64,000 bases of DNA, from assembly GCA_006384855.1 (NCBI GenBank), contig VCJN01001096.1:40250-104249 (forward strand), read 5' to 3'. The stretch comes from Tetraselmis striata (taxonomy: Eukaryota > Chlorophyta > Chlorodendrophyceae > Chlorodendrales > Chlorodendraceae). Below are positions 37,838 through 64,000 of the stretch, one piece after another. A model generated the notes under the pieces. It did not search any database and was not told the origin of the DNA. It was given only the letters and a program-made list of their open reading frames with translations. How positions within the stretch are numbered: the first letter of the stretch is position 1; each line of letters starts with the position of its first letter. A program made the translations under genes and the position numbers.

Positions 37838-40800
37838 CTACCAAGCATCGAAGTTGCCAAAGCCGCCGGTCTTGCTGCTCTTGCTAGGCCGGCCCCCGGG
37901 CGCGTCGCCCCCCTCCTGCCGCACGCAAGACAATCGCAGGTCAGCACGCGGGTGCCCCTGCACTTAAAACAACAACTCATGTGGCGACGCATGACACGCC
38001 AAAGCACCAGCAACCACGACCGCAACTGGCCGCGACCGCCTGCCTACCCTGCGAGCAGACTTGGCTGCCTTCATGTACTTCCCGACTCCGCCTCCGCCGC
38101 CCCCTGGCCGCCACAGGGCACCAAGCCATTGTCAGCATCAAAACTGTTGGGGGCGGGGACACCCCAACGCAATGCACGTCACTTCAAATATCAATTCAGA
38201 ATAGTCGGCCTAACATATTATTCCGCCGGTTATATTATCTGATAATTTCAGAGCAACACGGGTGCGTTCGCCTGATGAGGTAAATGGGGCATCAAATAGG
38301 AGAACAGCGGGGGGGGGTGGGGGGGGGGGGGGGGGGGGGCATGTGCCGTGTACACCTGCCCCGCCTTGCATGCCCGCTGGATTGCTGAACCACGACCCAA
38401 ACTCCGAGTCGTCCGGGCCATTGGCCGCCTTCTCCGCCTGCGGATTGCAAGCGCGCTGTGGCTCAGCAGACCGACCGGCCCGCTCGTTGCCTCGACCGCC
38501 AGTTCCTCACCAGGACGGAATGTGGTTTCTACTCCGCCACAGAGGCAAAACGTTGTCTTCTGACATGTCAGTGTGCTCTCTCGCGGAACGTATCACGGTG
38601 TGATAAAGCTGATGAAGAGGAAGGGCGGGGGGGGGGGGGGGGGGGGGGGGGCGGGTAAGGTGGACCTTCTGCCGCTCCTCCTCAGCTGCCTTCTCCTCCT
38701 CGGCCGCCATCTCCCGGAAGGGGTTCACAAAGACGGAGGCCGACAGGAAGGTGATGCTCTGCAGCAGATGCGGCAGCCAGTCAACGCCCAACCGCCGATG
38801 GCCGCCAATCGGCGAGCAGCGGAGGGCGGGCCGTTACATCGGCATTGCGGCCTTCATGTCATGACGGCAGGCAGCAAAATAGGCAGCCGGCGGCGGCATG
38901 GGACAGCATCCACCTTCTTGGGCGTGTCCTCGCTGTCGGTCTCGATCTGCTCCATAGCGCTGAGGATCTCCATGCCTGGTGGGGTGACGGGCATGCGGTT
39001 ACCCCCCGCCGAAATGGGCGCAGCCTGCACGTCACGGAGGGCTGTTATATGTGATGGGGCCGCTGCGGGTGCCCCGGGCCCGGGTGCCGACTTACCGCCC
39101 ACCACTTTGCCAAAGACGGCGTGCTTGTAGTCCAGGTGATGGGCGCTCTTGTAGAGGATGAAGAACTGGCTGCCGTTGGTGTTCTGCCCACTGCGCACAC
39201 CACAGCGGCAGCGAGTTCATTGGTGTGTGAGGCGTGCCGATGTCTGTAGACAGAAAGCGAGTGTTGAGAGAGACACACCGCGAACCTTCGAAGGGCCAAA
39301 GAGGGGGGGGGGGGGGGGGTGCACCTGTTCGCCATGCTCAGTACACCGCGGCTAGAGTGCGTCAGCCGGCTGTCCAGCTCATCCTGCAGCCGGTGACGAA
39401 TATATCAGCAAACACAAGCCTCATTGGCGCTCCTCCGCACCTGGGAGGCTTCACCGCCTGTGGCAAGAGCGACAGGGGGAAGAGGGCAAGAGCTTACGCG
39501 GAACGTGGCGCCGTAAATGGACTCCCCGCCCTTGCCAGTGCCGGTGGGGTCCCCGCCCTGCAGCATGAAGCTCCTGCATACGCACATGGGGGACTCGTCA
39601 GGAATGGCGGCGGCGCCACTACGGCACCGACAGCAGCTGCGCCCCGTACAAGGTACAGCAGACGTGCGCATCGTGCCCAGAGGAGGGAGCTGACCTGATG
39701 CTCCGGTGGAACGCCGTGTTGTTGTAGTATCCTTGCTCGCACAGCTCCAGGAAGTTCTCGCAGGTGCGCGGCACAATGTCGCAGTGCAGCTCAATGTTCA
39801 GGTCGCCCTGCGGGTGGCACCGCGGCATGCGAAGCGCACCATCAGCAGTTCCCTTGTGGCTTTGTCTCACGGCGGGGCGTCCTTTTGGACGAGCGAGGCC
39901 TTTCACTTGGCGCTCTTGCGTCTCCCATATCCGCGGGCGCATGACGGCCAGGACAGCCCATAACCTACCTGGTAAGCTAGGGTTACATACCCTGGTTTCA
40001 ACCCAGATAGGGCACCTAGTGCTAGGGTTTTACGCCCTATACACAGCCCTAATTGGGGCACGACGAGACCTACAGACAAGCCCTTGCTGAACTGTGTGGC
40101 GAAGTGTAGCATTACTGGCGAAGTGTACGGTTGCCTCCATTGGGATGGCACGGGATTCTGTGGGCAGCCCATCGCCCCGCCGGTGACAGCGCCCCACGCG
40201 AAACCACGAGGATGCGACGGACCAGGCAAGGCGGGCGACCAGCGGTTGCTAATGCGCATCTGCTTACTCATGTTCTCGTGGCTGTGCGGACCGCCATTGT
40301 GTAGTGCTCGCGGGCCAATGCTCATGGCGGCAGATACCGGGGCGAAAGAGCGTCATCGTTACTCGTCGCCATCATGCCAGAGTACGCCGATGGCCGATGT
40401 TTCATTATTACTTCATGGTGAGTTACAACATTGGCGATGCACAATAAACCTCGACGATTTCGGCACTGCAACAGTGTAAAAGACAATTTGAGGAATATCC
40501 GTAAGTCACAAAGTAGTAGTTATCGATTTACTTGGGGACTGTTGGAAGTATATGCGATACATATTGTATGTATATTGGTGCTACGGCCGCATGTATTAAA
40601 CATGTGACAGAAGAGGTTTTGGCGGCTCATCATGATGGCGATGATGGCGATGATGGCGAAAGCCTAAGCCCCGTTTTGCGTCCCGGGTAGGTCGGCCCCC
40701 TGAACCCACCAGATTGGTGTGCATGCGCACGTAGCCCTTCTTCTTGGGGTGGCGCTCGATGAGGACGCGCTCCCGGGCGTTCTTCTTGATGGGCTCCCAC

Positions 40801-55245: not shown

Positions 55246-56556
55246 ATGAATACCCATCGCCCTGACTCACCCCCTCTGCAGGGCCATCCGTGTCTTTGGC
55301 GTCAACGTTTGTGGCGCGGCGCGCCCAGGCTCAGAGGACAATGTGCAAAGCAAAGGTATCCGTTGTTGATGGGGGTTGGGAAGGGGGGCGCCTGCACAGT
55401 GCGCAATTCTGTTCTGCAGCGATGTTGATTATGGCCTGCTGACCAACATGCAGGTGACCATGGCTGCGGATGGCTTGAAGAAGATCATCATCTCTGGCGC
55501 GCCAGCCTCTGGGAAGGGGACGCAGTGCGAGAAGATCAAGGAGGAGGTGCGGCGGATAGCCTGCGGCGTGTGATCTGTGGAATGTTGTGAACGTTTTCCT
55601 GGTTGGACTCGCTCTTGCGCACAGCCAGTGTAGCACCATGGCATTACCACAATGACATGATGATTCACTCAATGTGCCTCACGTGCGGCGCGCAGTTTGG
55701 CCTCGCGCACATTTCAGCAGGCGACTTGCTGCGCGCCGAGGTTGCCGCTGGCACTGAGGCCGGCATGCGTGCCGAGGGCTTCATGAAGGCTGGGGAGCTG
55801 GTGCCGGATGAGGTCGTCATCACCATGGTGAAGAACCGTCTGGCGGAGGACGATGCCCAGACCAAGGGCTGGCTCCTGGATGGCTACCCTCGGTCAGCCT
55901 CGCAGGCGGCTGCCCTCAAGGAAGCCGGCATTGAGCCCGATGTTTTCCTCCTTCTTGAGGTGCTACTCCTCCACTGACTTTGCAGCATGTCACTGCCAAG
56001 TGGATATCTGTTGTCCTGAGATTGGTCCCGCTCCCCTCTCCCAGGTTCCGGACGAGATCCTGATTGAGCGCGTGGTTGGGCGCCGCATGGATCCCGAGAC
56101 TGGAAAGATCTACCACATGAAGTACTTCCCGCCGCCCGCTGACATTGTGGACCGCCTGACACAGCGCAGCGATGACAACGAGGAGGCGGTGAGTGAACGC
56201 CATTTGCCTCGGCTATCGGATTGTGTTTTAGCTAGTTTTTGAAGCCGTTACATCGGTGACGTCTTTGTTGGACCGGCCTGGTGGCTGCAGGCAAGGAATA
56301 GGCTGGCGACACATGCGCGCAACGTGGATGCCGTCCTTGATAACTACCGTGACATCATGGTGCAGGTACACGAGCCCGCCTTTCTACATGCCTGCATCGG
56401 GATGCTGTGACATGCTGACGCATGGGTCGTGTAGACTGTGAGTACGGGAAACCAAAGCGCAAAAGGTTGATGCTGACAACACCCTTGGAGCGCTTGCAGA
56501 TTGATGGCAACCGGGACAAGGAGGCGGTGTTCAATGACATCATGGCAGCTCTCTGA
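55246..56556 (+). CDS. ADK: Adenylate kinase, long form, probably organelle-targeted
   Basis: Six exons, 55246-55355, 55420-55546, 55696-55959, 56045-56188, 56291-56365 and 56500-56556, close in phase to 258 residues. P-loop GAPASGKGT at residues 63-71, then [33 protein letters not shown] and [20 protein letters not shown] with [13 protein letters not shown], the long lid of the plant and bacterial form, lacking zinc-binding cysteines. It catalyses ATP + AMP = 2 ADP. The first 37 residues are Arg-rich with few acidic residues ([17 protein letters not shown]), resembling an organelle transit peptide. If exon 1 is wrong, translation could start at M44 or M51 in exon 2, giving a cytosolic form. 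Confidence 0.92.
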
Positions 56557-56620
56557 AGTTGTGGTGGTGACGACTGCCTCTGGCCTACAAATTGAGTTAT
56601 TTTGGCGGATCCCAATCCCT

Positions 56621-56625
56621 TGTAA
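56621..56625 (+). terminator. TGTAA polyadenylation signal of the adenylate kinase gene
   Basis: TGTAA 65 bases after the stop, the green-algal poly(A) signal. Confidence 0.5.
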
Positions 56626-56629
56626 ACAA

Positions 56630-59600
56630 GACCACCAAAAGCAAAGCAGTTTCTTGTGGTTTCTAAATGATATTCTTCAACTCCACAGCGCTTTGTTATT
56701 CTTTCCTATGATTCTCGTTTTCGATGGGGGTGTGTTCTACGAAGCTCAAACTATGTCCAGCCACTTGAGAATTATTGCTGAAGCTTCGCGGCTTTTTGCA
56801 GCGCTGCTAGCATCAGCATGCTGAAATGCTCATCACCATTCTCCGCGATTTGCCACTCTTTTCTTCCCTGTGCCATCGGTGTCAAACCTTCTGAGAGCTT
56901 CCTGAACAGCGCCGCAACCAATTACGGCTTTTGTGAAGTCATGCTTGGGCAACCCTCAGGCTGTTCGTGAATTACCGATTGTAACAGCAAGCCGCGCCGG
57001 ATAGGCGGTCCCAGTTCGTCATCTGGCCGACATGTCCAGGCCACGGTCGAGCAGTCTTCATGGTTGAGCGATGCAGCAGTCACCGCTAGACCAGACCTCC
57101 AATTCTCCCCTCAGTAAAAATAGAGTTGCAGCCTCGCCATGTGTCCTCATGTGTGCTGACTTGTGCCATGACTGGACTCCGTGGTATGCATTGAACATAA
57201 GGGGCCGCCGCAGCTGGGCATAGCACATCAAAGTCTCGGTGCGGTACTGATCGCTAGTACATCTTAGTGATCAGTATTCGCGGCCGTACTCATAGAGGAC
57301 TCGCGGTGAATAGGATGACGGTTGTGAGGTAGTGGTGTAGGCCCCACGTCAGGTGTACACGGGTGTAGAGGGCATGTATGGCACAAGGGATGATGTTCAG
57401 TTCGAGCAGACACTGGCGCAAGCTTCGTACTGCTTTCCCGGCAGCCTTGATTATGTTGCCAACGTCGTAGTTCTCACTGCAACTATAGGAGGTCAAAAGG
57501 AGACATTTGAAGCGGTCCACCACTGACATGAAAATCGCTTAGCTATATCTTAGCTTATTGTTATTGGGTAGATCCTCCCCATCATTGCAATAAAGGCTGA
57601 TGAACGGGTGGCGGCAGTGAGGATGACGATGCGGCTGCAGAGAAGCATTGGCCAATTATGAGCGACAACACGGATATCGATACCTCATCCCTCGAAGTGC
57701 TGAATCAGTTGCGGAATAGTCACCATCTTCTCGAGATTATCCCAACAGTCAGTCGGCAATGATGTAAGAATCTGTGCCGTAATCCCCATGCTTATAATCA
57801 GGGAGTTCGCCATTCATGAAGCCCTAGGCAGTTGCTGAAGGGCATCATCGCATCCCTGAGGTAAAGTGGACAAGGAGTTAAGCCATGTTACCCACAAAAC
57901 ATAAATGTGAGGATAATGCTGCAGTGTTTCATACCGGTATGCAAACATATATGTTTACATGCACAGCCTGCTACACCCCTCCACATAAGTTTGGGGTCCT
58001 TTTTTGGCTGAATATGAAATGAAAAATACAAGGGTACCTAAACGTAGGGCTTTAAAGCTGGAACCCAGGAATGTTTTAGGTTGTTATAAAAAGTTTTGCT
58101 TGATAGGTTCTGAATTATAACCTATTACCCTAATAATAGGGTATTGCGATCTGGCGCGGGGCTCAAAGGGCATGACGCAGTGATGCACAACAATACATGT
58201 TATTGGCACATACATGATGGCCCACATGCATAGAGCATTGTATGGTGCAATGGCCGTAGATGTGTGAGGAAACATAGTAGCTCGCGGGTTGGGTGGGTTT
58301 GGGTGGGCATAGTCACTTAAGGCAGAGTGGGCACACGTGCGTGTGGCGATGCTAGGACCAGTGCAGTTTTGCCCACTGCAAGCGACACCCCCTAGACTTC
58401 AAACGCTTATAGCGGCTCAGGGAGTGCTCCAAAAATTCTAAAAGAATGCGCAAACAAATCCTTGCGTCAAACGCAGGAGGTGGTTTGGACTTTGAGCACC
58501 TAATTTTCACGTTTTGACCACTTTCTAGCGATGAACATAAAATACATCAATCGCGGCATCATTTCGCAACACTCAGCCTCAACATGGGGGCGTAGCTTTG
58601 CGCTATGTGTGTCCCCTTACTCCATACGCGTTTGTGTGGCAGTGTTATGAATGTAGATGCACACGGGCGGCGCAAACTTGCCACATGCTCCCTCTCTAGC
58701 CATGTCCTCGATGGCCAACAGCGTTGTGCTGTTTTCGACATATTATTTTTGGTGATATTCAAGCATTTAATAGCGCGCTGCTATGTGGCATTTTACTTGT
58801 GATTCGGCGCAATTGCCATGCGTGCACGCGACCCCCATTGATGCGCTCTCGCCTAAGCCAAGGAGGGCTCAATAAGCCTTTCATGCGTGAGTAGGCAAAA
58901 ATAACAGCACCATTTTTGGCCGAAAATCACGCCATGTAGTGGTGAAACTGTAATTTAGGGCTTGTGTAATACCCTTAGTGACCTAATCTTGGTGCCCCAC
59001 ACATGTTGTAGGTGAACCTTACACTTGAGATGGCAGCATGTCAGTACGGCGTGGATTTGCGCGTTGGATGTGTGCGTACGAAGGGATGGCGCAACTTGTT
59101 ATTTTCCAGTGCAAGTTTTACACGCATTGATTTGCCATTTCTCGAGGGGCGCAGAACGACGCATGCCATGTCGCACGGTTAGGCCTAGAGCGCGCCCCCA
59201 TTTTTTCCCAAGTCAACCTCGCCCTTATTCACTTGCATGCAATTCCCCACGCCGTATTTTCTACATGACATGCGCATGTCGAACAAAACTGCAAAACCCA
59301 AACTTATGTGGAGGGGTATATATCCATGCAGCAGCCCCGAGCATGCCTGTAGCGATAGACTACATATTATATTCTGATTAATCCTGAAGTCCCCTTTAAA
59401 GTACTTCAAAGTATATGCAGTGTGGTAGCAATCAATTAATGAAATAACATCGTCCACCCCCGCCCCATCAGGCGCAGGATCATTATTTTATAATTATCTG
59501 AAATATTAGATAATTTTTAACAGCACCTAGAGTGGGCGTTTACTACTGCCTTTTCGGGTGATTTCTCGATCTCGCCTTTATTTACAGCGGCAGTAAATGT

Positions 59601-59740
59601 AGAGAAGACTTGTCGATTTGGAGTCTCAGCAGTCTCAGCAGTAGTATTTTTGAAATAACAATATAGCAAAATAACACTTATTATTATGACATATATAAGT
59701 AAAACAGCAAGTAATCAAACAGTACGGGTCTAAAATCCTG
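56630..59740. other. 3.1-kb gene-poor, AT-richer stretch
   Basis: No intact gene was recognised. A minus-strand ORF at 57290-57529 (79 codons) contains FKCLLLTSYSCSENY and HALYTRVHLTWGLHHY, which weakly resemble the post-polymerase region of LINEs. Both strands of 57650-59740 are dense in stops. A block at 59744-59790 has GGATTT repeats recalling the dispersed tail. Confidence 0.5.
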
Positions 59741-59901
59741 CAGTATGGTGTCTGGATTTACTTATTCGGAATTTGTGTATGGATTTCAAAGTTGAGTCTG
59801 GTGCTGCCAAAAAGATCGCGCAGGCTGTTTTACACGGTCAAGAGCCGAAATTGGCAGGATGGTTTAGCGAAAGCCTGGAGGGAAAACGGAGTCAGGGGGG
59901 G

Positions 59902-60091
59902 CGCTGCGTGGAACGCAGCGAAAACTGGAAGATGGCAGGCTCAGCTGTTCTAGCTGCTTTTATGTCTACTCGTGCTGCACCCAAAAAGGGCGCAACAACA
60001 GATGCCTAGTTCCCGTACCACCGAGCAGCACTTGTAGCTGAAAAGCGGTTAGGTCAAGGGAGGAAACCCCATAAACTAGTTTAAAACATTT
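59902..60091 (+). repeat. Left 190-bp direct repeat of the recombinase element
   Basis: Begins with the perfect hairpin CGCTGCGTGGAACGCAGCG (8-bp arms, 3-base loop). It overlaps the C-terminal end of the recombinase frame. Confidence 0.93.
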
Positions 60092-61582
60092 CAAACTTGA
60101 GTCTGGTTTTGCCAGTCTTGAGCGAACGGAGAGAGCGGTGGATTGACGGAGAAGAGGTAGCGCCAAGTCATGAAGGAGGCACTGGGAAGGCCACCGCTGC
60201 GGAGTCCTGTTGGACTTGGAAGCGGCGTAGGGGGCGATGTGTCCAAGGAAGAACCATGCGCCAGGTGAAAGAAGAACGTTGGGGTCGATGTAGTCCAGAA
60301 CGACGTCAGAGTTAGTGGCCCAACTGCCTTGGTAGCGAATGTGGGACAACGGCACACCGATGGCGTTCGCTGCAGAGGCTGCGCCCTTGCGAAGACTGTG
60401 CGAGGTACAGGAGGTGCCAGCAGGGGGGGGCAGCGTTGACTAGACGGACGGCTGTGAACAAAGCAACCAGTCTGACAGTGCAGTCGCAGTCCAAGGGTTC
60501 TGACTGCCCATCCGAGCTGACAGCCCAGAAGTTTGACACAGCCAAGCCAACAGTAACCAGGAGGACTGACTGGACGTAGTCGAGGAAGTGGTGCAGGAGA
60601 CGTGGCACTCGGGGGTGCTCTGACAGTGGGAGGAGAAGTACGCGTAGGTCGTCGGGTCCCCGTCGACCAGCGCGATCTCTCGGCACGTGCAGGGCGATGT
60701 TGTAGTCGTCGACATGCACGTCTTGCACTCGACAGGACACGCTAGTAAGGTCCCTGGCAAGAATATAAGTTGACAACCGAGGCCAGGAGGGCTCGGAGGT
60801 CGTGGTGGTACTCTGGGTAGGGAGCAGACACAATCAGCTCGGCCTTTGTGACGAAGCGACAAGCCACATCCGCAGGCGGAGGGACACGCAAAGGGGCAGC
60901 GTCCAATCGGCGCTGACCCAGCGTCAGCCCACGAACTGAGGCAGCCGGCCGCGTAGCTCTTGAGTGTCTGAGCGTTGAGGGAGCTGGAGAGTAGGTCGAG
61001 CGTCCGCTGGCCCAGCTTGTCTGAGCCGAACGCGTCATGCAGCCGAGATCGCAATGAAGCGGCCCAGGGAGCGACAGCTTCGAGCTCGCTAATCACGTAA
61101 GTGCGTCGTTTTACTGATAGAGTTCCACCGGTACGACTACTGTTCGCAAAGTACTCGGCAGCAGCGGTTAGGTTCCCGGCGGTTGACCGGTAGCTGCTGG
61201 ACGGTTTTGCAGTAGCGTCGGTACGGGTTTGCGGGGCTAGGTTCAGGTAGGAGGGCCGCCCCGCGCGCCCTTCGCGCTCGTAGCGCCTGTCACGCGCGTA
61301 ACGTACCTGCGCGAAACTTGGTCGTTGCGAACCAGTTGTAACACGTGGTGTAACAACCGACGGACGCAGGGATGGGGTAAAGAAAGCGGTTGGTTGAGCC
61401 GCCATGTGCAGGTGTGCGGATGGTTGAGCCGCACTCGGTTGTGGCTGTAAGAAGCGCCGCACCGAGGAAGGTCTAAAGGAAGTCTGTAAGGTGGGGGGTT
61501 CAGGTCCTGACACAGGGCGCTCATCTCGCCGTTGAGCTGCAAGGGTGCGTCTTGCGGCGGTCACCGAAAGGTGGCCTCGCAA
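60000..61582 (-). pseudogene. Tyrosine recombinase, probably frame-broken
   Basis: The N-terminal part (61582-60950) is Pro/Ser/Arg-rich, then has LDLLSSSLNAQTLKSYAAG, a likely core-binding helix. The catalytic end (about 60420-60240) reads TSHSLRKGAASAANAIGV, IRYQGSWATNS and VVLDYIDP: the HxxR box at 60389-60400, Trp in place of the third His, and the nucleophilic Tyr at 60290-60292. Between about 60950 and 60400 the best coding pieces are in different frames (for example FVTKAELIVSAPYPEYHHDL in another frame), so this copy needs at least one frameshift. The first catalytic Arg was not located with confidence. Confidence 0.72.
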
Positions 61583-61618
61583 AGCCCCAGCAGCTCCGAC
61601 GAAAGGCGCCCCACACCG

Positions 61619-62515
61619 TCACTCGTGCTCACCCTCGCGGCCACGTCCGCGTCCACCACCACGTCCTCGCCCACGCCCGCGACCTGCAGCTGCAGCCGCC
61701 ACCCGAGCAGTAGCGGTCGCTTTCGCGCTGCTCGCAACGGTCGCCTCGAAGACACGGCGCTCGTAGTCCTTCATGAGGTCCCCAAAAATCGCGGAACCCA
61801 GATGCTCCGAAGCAGGCTGGAAATGTTGGGCTCGCAGCACCTCCAGAACACCTTGGTCACCGTTCACACGTTTGATCTCATTTAGCCTCCGCAAGAAGGC
61901 CAAGCGAAACCGAAACGCCTTGTCGATGGCCTCGGCGTGGTTCCGAGCTCTCGCCAGGTAGGGGGTGAAGTCCTGGTTGGTGACAGGGACGTAAGGCAGC
62001 AGCTCGTCGAGAGCCACGAAAAGCGCGGCCATGTGGGCCCCGAAACACGACATCCACAAATACTCCTCCTGGGCCGGCAGACGCCGGTCATCCTGCTTGA
62101 GGTACTCGTTCGTTAGGTCGGTGCTCAAGGGAAAGAGTCCAGGCACTCGGCTGACCGGTCGAACGGCCTCGTAACCAGAGCCTGATCTCTGCAGTAGTTC
62201 TGGCACAGCGAGGTAGTCATCCTTGGCACTCACGGATTTTGCTCCGACACGGCCGCCTTGGGCTAGCTCTAGCAAGTCGGGGCGCTCTGCGGCTCCCCCG
62301 CTGCTTGTCGGCTGTCCCGTGATGCGCTGCCCGAAGCTGGAGCCATGTGCTCCTTCACCAACAACACTCTCACGAGCCGTCAATTGAGCTACAGCTGTAG
62401 CTAGTGCCCGCAAATCTGCTTGCAGCGACTCCAACGTCGGCTCGGCGACGTTACCATGGGCTCCTTCTTCTCCATCTTGCATGGTAACGCACGGACGTAC
62501 GGACGAGAATATCAC
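61619..62515 (-). CDS. Gag-like protein of the recombinase element
   Basis: An uninterrupted 298-codon frame; MQDGEEGAHG at residue 12 is a likely start. A short coiled-coil candidate (LESLQADLRALATAVAQL) is followed by a helical middle (EEYLWMSCFGAHMAALFVAL, EAIDKAFRFRLAFLRRLNEI) and an Arg/Gly-rich tail GRGRGRGRGGGRGRGREGE that would bind nucleic acid in place of zinc knuckles. Position directly inside the right repeat and upstream of the recombinase on the same strand fits Gag. No database family could be checked. Confidence 0.65.
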   Translation of the reverse strand: MIFSSVRPCVTMQDGEEGAHGNVAEPTLESLQADLRALATAVAQLTARESVVGEGAHGSSFGQRITGQPTSSGGAAERPDLLELAQGGRVGAKSVSAKDDYLAVPELLQRSGSGYEAVRPVSRVPGLFPLSTDLTNEYLKQDDRRLPAQEEYLWMSCFGAHMAALFVALDELLPYVPVTNQDFTPYLARARNHAEAIDKAFRFRLAFLRRLNEIKRVNGDQGVLEVLRAQHFQPASEHLGSAIFGDLMKDYERRVFEATVASSAKATATARVAAAAAGRGRGRGRGGGRGRGREGEHE

Positions 62516-62592
62516 ACTCGGATGGCGAGCCGAGTGCGGTCTTGAACAACCTGGGGGTGACCTTGCAACTGGTTACGAGACAGTTTTTACAT

Positions 62593-62782
62593 CGCTGCGT
62601 GGAACGCAGCGAAAACTGGAAGATGGTAGGCTCAGCTGTTCTAGCTGCTTTTATGTCTACTCGTGCTGCACCCAAAAAGGGCGCAACAACAGATGCCTAG
62701 TTCCCGTACCACCGAGCACCACTTGTCGCTGAAAAGCGGTTAGGTCAAGGGAGGAAACCCCATAAACTAATTTAAAACATTT
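62593..62782 (+). repeat. Right 190-bp direct repeat of the recombinase element
   Basis: Near-identical to 59902-60091, including the terminal hairpin, and located 78 bases upstream of the Gag-like frame, so it may hold the element promoter. Confidence 0.93.
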
Positions 62783-63284
62783 ATTGAATGTTGCATATAG
62801 CACATGTCATTATATACATGTACTGGATTTTTCACGACGGAGTTTCAGGAGTCCGCACCAAAGGATTAATCCTTAATCCTTACTGTTTTCACATACCTGG
62901 ACGTGACGGATAGCGACTTTGCGTAGGCGAAGTACGAACGCGTGGGTGAAATACGGCCACTTAGCCCAGGGATATAGCGTTTTTCCCGCTCCAGGGATAG
63001 TAGTCGCTACGTACCTACCTGGTACTGTACTGGTATGTTGGTCCTCTGGCCCGCAGGCGCCTCCTCGGCGACGGACGAGCAGCCAGGGCGCACTGTCCTC
63101 CTGGAAGCCGGCGGAAGGACGCTCCTGTCCCAGCCAGACTCGGCGCCACAGCGGAATATAACCTCTTTAGCACGGCTCTTGTCGGCACCTCGCACCAACA
63201 GCACTTTCGAACTGCCGACCGTCAGCCCACAGGAGAGCCCCAGCCGGGGCGAGTACAGTGCGATTTACGCCGAAAGAGGCATCT

Positions 63285-63291
63285 CCCCCCC

Positions 63292-63312
<21 letters not shown>
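63285..63312 (+). repeat. Poly(C) run, 28 bases, followed by poly(A)
   Basis: Twenty-eight C then ten A. Confidence 0.95.
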
Positions 63313-63323
<11 letters not shown>

Positions 63324-63867
63324 AAATTAGCCCCTGGAACCCATTGCACTCACCCTGGCCCTGAATTCCCCACATGCAGCTTGCTATGGTGGCGGGTTGA
63401 TTCTATATGTGCGGCACGTATGTGCGAGGCAAAGGCAGCAAGGTACCCATCCCTGAGGGCGGCAACGGTAGAGAGGAGCGGCACTGCTGCCGCCATAAGG
63501 AAAGGAACAGTACGACGAGGCACTGCCATCAGAGGGACAAGTAGGAGGAGGGCGGAGGGGAAGCAAGACATCGCACTCCTCCGCCAGTCACAGGCATATG
63601 TATACCGTATGAGGGCGGCAACAGTGCAAAGGACCGGCACTGCCATGAAAGAGGGGGCGATATTCAGTCGGCATGTCACTGTCACCACCATCGAATGTCA
63701 TATGTATGATGACACACTGCGAATGACGGCTCTGCATGCCCGGCTTCGCTGCAGACGTGCAGGCATGTCGAGTGCCGCAGTGGATCTCGCGCCGGGGGTG
63801 TCTACAGAACGCGCTGCCTCCGGCAAGACAATCCCCGCGAAGCGCGCAGCTACCGGTATGTCTAACG

Positions 63868-63888
63868 CCCCCCCCCCCCCCCCCCCCC
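63868..63888 (+). repeat. Poly(C) run, 21 bases
   Basis: Homopolymer near the right window edge. Confidence 0.95.
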
Positions 63889-64000
63889 TCCCGCCCGCCC
63901 CCAGCCAGCTTGCGTGATGCCTCAGCGCCGCTGATGCCCCCGCGTGCCCAGCCGTCTAACAGTTGGTGGCACTGTTCCCCCCAATGCTCAGGCCCACCCC

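Follow-up and report, generated by a model that had tools for sequence, protein, structure and literature searches.

A compact split-repeat element of Tetraselmis striata with a Gag-like protein and a tyrosine recombinase, and with no reverse transcriptase in the copies examined

Background

Split direct repeats in the order A1-B1-A2-B2 are described for PAT, Ngaro, and VIPER elements (PMC4157794; PMC6681497), VIPER and TATE combine gag, a tyrosine recombinase (YR), and reverse transcriptase/RNase H (RT/RH) in the order gag-YR-RT/RH with split repeats and without a target-site duplication (TSD), and SIRE is an A2-B2 derivative (PMC12278014). Cryptons are characterised by a YR, terminal direct repeats of 4-6 bp, and no long repeats. 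Here we describe a compact YR element found in a window of 64,000 nucleotides (the whole stretch of DNA that was analysed: positions 40,250 to 104,249 of contig VCJN01001096.1, assembly GCA_006384855.1) from Tetraselmis striata, a chlorodendrophyte green alga. On the minus strand of the window the order is A1-Gag-YR-B1-A2-spacer-B2. The element belongs to a high-copy family of roughly nine hundred copies, and RT is absent from the copies examined.

The compact element is similar to PAT-like DIRS elements (PAT, Toc3, Kangaroo) in its A1...B1A2B2 repeats, its Gag-like open reading frame (ORF), and its YR, and differs from them by the missing RT, RNase H, and methyltransferase as well as by a B repeat of 26 nt and a spacer of 92 nt. 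Its Gag-like protein fits the Gag of these elements in position, RG-rich tail, and selection, but homology and a reliable fold were not obtained. With VIPER/TATE of the trypanosomatids it shares the order of gag-like gene and YR, the A1 and B1-A2-B2 repeats, and the absence of a TSD (16 of 17 insertions), and a CH-box is absent as it is from TATE and some VIPER copies. However, VIPER/TATE carry RT/RH after the YR, while the YR of the compact element usually stops about 80 nt before A2 and RT/RH is absent. SIRE, a short VIPER derivative, is likewise RT-less and tied to split repeats but comprises only the A2-B2 region, whereas the compact element retains two conserved ORFs. Ngaro elements have RT/RH and YR, split direct repeats, and no methyltransferase, and the compact element lacks the RT needed for a place among them. 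Cryptons also encode a YR without RT, and the compact element is distinguished from them by its 187-nt and 26-nt repeats. The compact element behaves like a non-autonomous PAT/VIPER-type element yet does not have the RT on which membership depends. In Gag-only LTR elements of the TR-GAG and BARE-2 type the structural protein is kept or lost apart from the RT, which acts in trans. However, these belong to the LTR/integrase class and the compact element to the YR class. No element with Gag and YR and without RT was found in the literature searched, which consisted mostly of non-subscription papers and did not include Repbase.

Results

A high-copy family without reverse transcriptase

A reading of the window made from its letters alone (the sequence-only reading) had proposed to look for further copies of the repeat in the genome and to compare their internal lengths. 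The exact B|A junction, counted with either subfamily start, is present 913 times in the genome and the exact start of A 1,823 times, while the reversed patterns used as controls gave 0 in each case. The ratio of 2.0 (1,823/913) corresponds to two A repeats per element, and lone A-spacer-B remnants do not produce any excess over two A per element as far as exact matches are concerned. A 23-nt core of the repeat has 1,570 exact sites (reversed control 0), and a genome search with the 190-bp repeat resulted in 1,837 candidates, 40 of which were scored as matches. The main subfamilies, defined by the start of the element, are TGTTTTAAAC, which includes the window copy, and TGATCTAAAC, which accounts for most sites listed; TGTTCTAAAC is rarer. 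Most same-strand neighbours less than 20 kb apart are spaced by 2.6-3.0 kb (37 of 45 in the core list and 26 of 33 in the A-start list), with counts drawn from the first 100 sites listed per pattern.

Twenty loci with compact elements (L031-L050) were compared in detail. In the complete copies the DNA between the repeats is colinear with Gag and YR and contains no stretch of the size of an RT (BLASTN layout). L031 carries the same YR deletion as the window copy, Gag is missing from L049, the A1 of L039 is interrupted by an insertion, and a second, incomplete copy is present in each of L035 and L047. The absence of RT noted in the sequence-only reading agrees with all searches: Pfam did not identify an RT in four ORFs of the window copy, and identified neither RT nor RNase H nor a Dam-type methyltransferase in the 12 ORFs of at least 90 codons of L034, where ten ORFs on the other strand or in other frames had no match at E 0.1; tblastn with a DIRS-type RT found none in positions 56001-64000 of the window. 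The sequence-only reading had also held that the lack of RT might be that of one deleted copy, to be recognised by RT/RH in the other copies. No compact copy in the 20 loci has RT/RH or room for it. With the same RT-less plan in 20 of 20 loci, a spacing of 2.6-3.0 kb in most listed pairs, and 913 junctions in the genome, the lack of RT is not explained by a deletion in one copy. Of the possibilities offered by that reading, a Gag-YR type without RT and with a PAT-like repeat logic is supported, whether or not it is an evolutionary intermediate, and a single internal deletion copy is not.

Two candidates for an RT-bearing form were rejected. When the DIRS-type RT was compared by tblastn with 55 stretches, it matched only its own locus and L035:398-895 (24%, E 4e-4). 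The latter match sits in a Gypsy-like frame and is attributed to a neighbouring or nested LTR element. The other candidate was a repeat pair 8.8 kb apart (L051), which is a compact copy split by a nested insertion of 5.9 kb (L051:2241-8141) within its YR, with an 8-bp overlap at the edges. A further pair, 9.6 kb apart on C1425, encloses an RVT_1 match on the opposite strand. Relatives in viral contigs were searched for and none were found.

The L035 locus is composite. A Ty3/Gypsy-like frame of 1,021 codons (L035:2-3064), labelled from its RT and integrase motifs, precedes a compact copy that ends prematurely at the YR. In L035:3648-8132 there are two compact copies, of which one is truncated; they have opposite orientations and are separated by about 110 bp.

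The tyrosine recombinase and the Gag-like protein

The split YR pieces of the window copy have no Pfam match. The open copy in L034 matches Phage_int_SAM_1 (1.3e-6, over the cut-off) and Phage_integrase (0.0066, below the cut-off), and also matches Cre, with 0.0048 as a single sequence and 3.8e-6 with a profile of eight relatives. In an alignment of eight YRs, comprising one member of the compact family and seven relatives, R194, K221, H311, R314, W337, and Y347 (P0231 numbering) are invariant, the first R and the K having been assigned by eye against Cre. The R-K-HxxR-W-Y set of a YR is present, and the HSLR..W..Y order seen in the sequence-only reading was thus correctly taken for that of a recombinase. 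Judged by these residues and matches, the element encodes a tyrosine recombinase. Relatives of 40-51% identity are found among the best 120 of 265 matches. Proteins with the label Tetstr1/TSEL, taken as T. striata, are identical to three of the loci compared over runs of 348-358 residues. The L034 frame in Gag phase is open for 582 codons after the TGA and continues beyond ...PVPPS, which is the end of the YR in L037 and in the gene models shown. A transcript-derived protein (P0159, MMETSP) is 84% identical to the catalytic part of the YR, a hint of expression.

The Gag-like ORF with an RG-rich tail was found as described before, on the minus strand, and its C-terminal sequence is GRGRGRGRGGGRGRG. 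In the window copy it has 298 residues from a GTG, or 287 from the ATG at 62482 (11 codons in) that is used by other copies, and it stops with the TGA at 61619-61621, which is followed by CGG. The frame is also open in L034 (284 residues). A genome search with the protein gave 4,686 candidates; of the 137 scored as matches, 12 contain a stop. We infer that the protein is Gag-like by its position, its predicted helices, and its RG-rich tail and composition only.

Selection on both reading frames and their expression

Variants shared by at least two of 21 aligned copies were counted at codon positions 1/2/3. They are distributed 26/10/61 in Gag (p 7e-10; nonsynonymous/synonymous-like (ns/s-like) ratio 0.20), 10/16/32 in the N-terminal part of the YR (p 0.001; ratio 0.32), and 35/20/71 in the YR core (p 8e-8; ratio 0.25). 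The linker between Gag and YR has 3/3/8 (ratio 0.22), a bias that is not significant alone (p 0.17). Shared stop variants are present neither in Gag nor in YR. These patterns indicate that Gag and YR have both been under purifying selection, and because the shared variants are biased to third positions both proteins were presumably used in the lineages that founded copies.

The linker from Gag to the first ATG of the YR comprises 71 codons. Its Gag frame is open in 15 of 20 copies, and the other two frames are stopped in all 20. The TGACGG at the Gag end is conserved in 22 of 22, and TGA followed by CGG is a leaky stop context. This is partial evidence which suggests readthrough of the TGA to give a Gag-TGA-YR product. 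Gene models of T. striata (e.g. P0043, from a cluster of 92) splice Gag to YR, with joins at GT-AG when compared by eye to L034. The element may produce Gag and a Gag-TGA-YR readthrough product, with splicing as the alternative, as the gene models have it.

Termini, insertion sites, and transcript signals

The left edges read flank|TGTTTTAAAC or flank|TGATCTAAAC, from which the window copy, L036, L038, and L048 deviate by base changes. On the right, all 18 readable copies end in GAAA|T or GAAA|C. At 16 of the 17 insertions with both edges readable the flanks do not share a repeat of at least 4 nt. Three insertions (L032, L040, and L045) are in a repeat whose uninterrupted form lies beside L034 (by eye). 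The B1|A2 sequence is the junction expected if the ends of the element were joined. B1 and B2 are identical at all 26 positions in L033 and L046, two of the seven copies measured.

Of 19 A1 repeats, 15 contain a promoter-like TATAAAA, which begins at about nt 124 of the 187, and the other four, including that of the window copy, have CATAAAA. The spacer contains TGTAA in 18 of 20 copies, 24-25 nt before B2 in the 17 that could be measured. UGUAA is reported as the poly(A) signal of chlorophytes with a peak about 17 nt before cleavage, and one Scherffelia gene has poly(A) sites 14 and 26 nt downstream of UGUAA (PMC1868727). Scherffelia and Tetraselmis belong to the same family.

The A1 and A2 repeats of one copy share 10 variants, compared to 1.36 expected on re-pairing (19 copies; 0 of 20,000 permutations reach 10). 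The copies were selected by one A resembling A2 of the window, by which divergence is biased low while the pairing within copies is unbiased. Such sharing is as expected if both repeats were rebuilt from one template. The window copy and L031 have the YR deletion in common and different flanks, which strongly suggests that a lineage with a dead YR was mobilised in trans.

A PAT-like element elsewhere in the genome

The genome also encodes a PAT-like element of 6.8 kb (C103:23652-30487; L054/L052/L053) with an A repeat of 268 nt (99.6%) and a B repeat of 121 nt (100%), arranged in the same A1...B1A2B2 geometry as in the compact element. Its frames encode a Gag-like protein of 700 codons, a Dam methyltransferase (8.7e-12) together with RVT_1 (1.3e-6; 28.7 bits, just below the cut-off of 29.6), and a downstream YR-like protein; the RNase H and YR labels were assigned from motifs. 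A genome search with its RT resulted in 106 matches (83 of 728 candidates scored), and at least five DIRS-type RT matches are long and stop-free (C103, C1324, C2569, C330, and C515). The match nearest to a listed compact copy is about 2.9 kb outside of it (C2423). Therefore, an RT donor is available in principle within the genome. Several close copies of the C103 RT exist elsewhere in the genome, and the many near-identical scores among the best 150 of 3,001 candidates of an RVT_1 genome search suggest one dominant family.

Discussion

How the family may have reached its copy number

The copying of YR retrotransposons has been modelled mainly from sequence. The compact element is probably RNA-mediated, with Gag and YR of its own and an RT that comes from elsewhere. 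From the patterns in the copies we infer the RNA intermediate, the Gag function, the RT in trans, the transcript ends, and the readthrough. Transcription would start in A1 at the TATA box and would end near the start of B2, downstream of the TGTAA. The Gag-like protein would bind the element RNA, which a foreign RT would copy. The beginning of A and the greater part of B would be missing from such an RNA, and the internal B1-A2 block, as a copy of the circle junction, could restore both by supplying the untranscribed ends and closing a circular cDNA. The YR would then integrate the circle, usually without a TSD.

Several observations weigh against this proposal. The C103 element, the only PAT-like element compared, does not have termini or genes in common with the compact family: the DNA comparison yields nothing but words of at most 23 nt (E ~1), BLASTP aligns neither its Gag nor its YR with the compact counterparts, its B is 121 nt long compared to 26 nt, and its A1 does not contain a TATA box. 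Compared by eye with the compact copies listed, the 106 DIRS-type RT matches all lie outside of them. The Gag-like protein has no Pfam match above the cut-off, two structure models of it are poor (pLDDT 48.6 and 40.6), and a zinc knuckle is absent given that it contains one cysteine only. TGTAA occurs in the element at about chance frequency (2 compared to 1.4 expected), and thus only its position is informative. The variants common to A1 and A2 could come from gene conversion instead, and only two of 54 private variants are present in both A copies. In addition, one insertion of the 17 (L037) has a 13-nt flank repeat, located in a repetitive stretch.

The best of the other explanations, although an unlikely one, is a Crypton-like DNA transposon, in which a DNA circle would be cut out or replicated by the YR and then inserted again, with the Gag-like protein as an accessory factor that binds DNA and the repeats as sites of recombination. 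The YR is present and selected while RT is absent from the copies in the 20 loci, the B1|A2 sequence matches the expected circle junction, and duplications are missing at 16 of 17 insertions, all of which such a transposon would account for. However, Cryptons have terminal repeats of 4-6 bp rather than long split ones, and excision between A1 and A2 should leave solo A2-spacer-B2 remnants, of which the 1,823 A starts and 913 junctions do not reveal a surplus (exact matches). Also, the positions of TATA and TGTAA fit an RNA whose missing ends equal what A and B duplicate.

It is rather doubtful that the family is an old internal-deletion derivative of a lost, rare, or unsampled full-length element with RT and the same termini, whose RT, and perhaps Gag, it still uses. 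The order Gag-YR is that of VIPER/TATE minus RT/RH, and nothing else is missing from the ORFs and repeats. A rare long form could escape given that about the first 100 sites were listed per pattern and that, of the long pairs (4.8, 8.8, and 9.6-14.5 kb), the one of 8.8 kb was examined. Yet RT is found in no compact copy of the 20 loci, the 8.8-kb pair contains a nested insertion, and selection on both ORFs exceeds what passive parasitism would need. Besides, such a history overlaps with copying by a borrowed RT and adds only an origin. Still less probable is a self-contained Gag-YR system that reached about 900 copies without a partner RT, for instance through DNA circles replicated with the help of the YR, in which case the split repeats would be paired recombination sites and not jump points of reverse transcription. 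Finally, one decayed copy of an ordinary PAT/DIRS element is a very improbable explanation because, while the window copy does have a YR deletion and a frame break, all of the 20 loci have the same RT-less plan and most of the listed spacings agree with it.

Gag, YR, and repeats that are kept under selection without an RT separate the functions an element carries from those that can be borrowed. The compact family is a short and abundant test case for this, with a B of 26 nt and an A of 187 nt that seem to correspond to the ends predicted for the RNA. Should the RT be borrowed, the parts with a preference for acting in cis would be Gag and YR; otherwise, amplification of a YR element would be possible without any RT.

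The copy in the window

The features of the window copy are given in Table 1. The two direct repeats in the same orientation with about 98% identity, from which the sequence-only reading started, are confirmed (59902-60091 and 62593-62782, 190 nt, 97.9% identity, E 9.6e-92, starts 2,691 nt apart). That reading had recognised the direct A pair and overlooked the B1/B2 pair of 26 nt, with which the element becomes one with split direct repeats, and it had assigned a span of 59902..62806, whereas the element extends over about 59784-62779, 118 nt past the left end noted. The boundaries are flank|TGTTTTAAA... and ...TTTGAAA|flank, a TSD is absent, and B1 and B2 are identical at 23 of 26 positions.

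Table 1. Positions of the parts of the compact element in the window.
Feature	Position	Strand	Basis or remark
Compact element from end to end, 2,996 nt	59784..62779	minus	comparison of its edges with those of 19 further copies
A1, left split repeat, 187 nt	62593..62779	minus	repeat alignment, edge comparison
Gag-like ORF, RG-rich at its C-terminus, 298 residues when read from GTG	61619..62515	minus	ORF list, copy comparison
YR, N-terminal part, frame in phase after the Gag TGA	60443..61618	minus	broken by a deletion of about 205 nt near 60931
YR, C-terminal catalytic stretch HSLRKGAAS...GSW...LDYIDP	60281..60400	minus	in another frame in this copy
B1 repeat, 26 nt	60089..60114	minus	repeat comparison
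A2, internal/right split repeat, 187 nt, abutting B1	59902..60088	minus	repeat alignment, edges
Unique spacer s, 92 nt, TGTAA 25 nt before B2	59810..59901	minus	motif position
B2 repeat, 26 nt, 3' end of the element	59784..59809	minus	repeat comparison, edges

The YR of this copy is split over frames by the deletion and a frame break. The missing stretch of about 205 nt is present in 19 of the 20 loci compared (somewhat less of it in L045). The difference is taken for a deletion and not for a spliced intron because, by eye, GT...AG ends are missing at the junction, which has an overlap of 5 nt in the window copy and in L031.

Beside the element, two 24-nt inverted repeats (96%; 57972-57995 and 59297-59320) are located 1.3 kb apart and are apparently flanked by TA, resembling a small DNA transposon. 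At about 1286-1483 the minus strand of the window has a weak match to a Dam methyltransferase (E 8e-4, below the cut-off).

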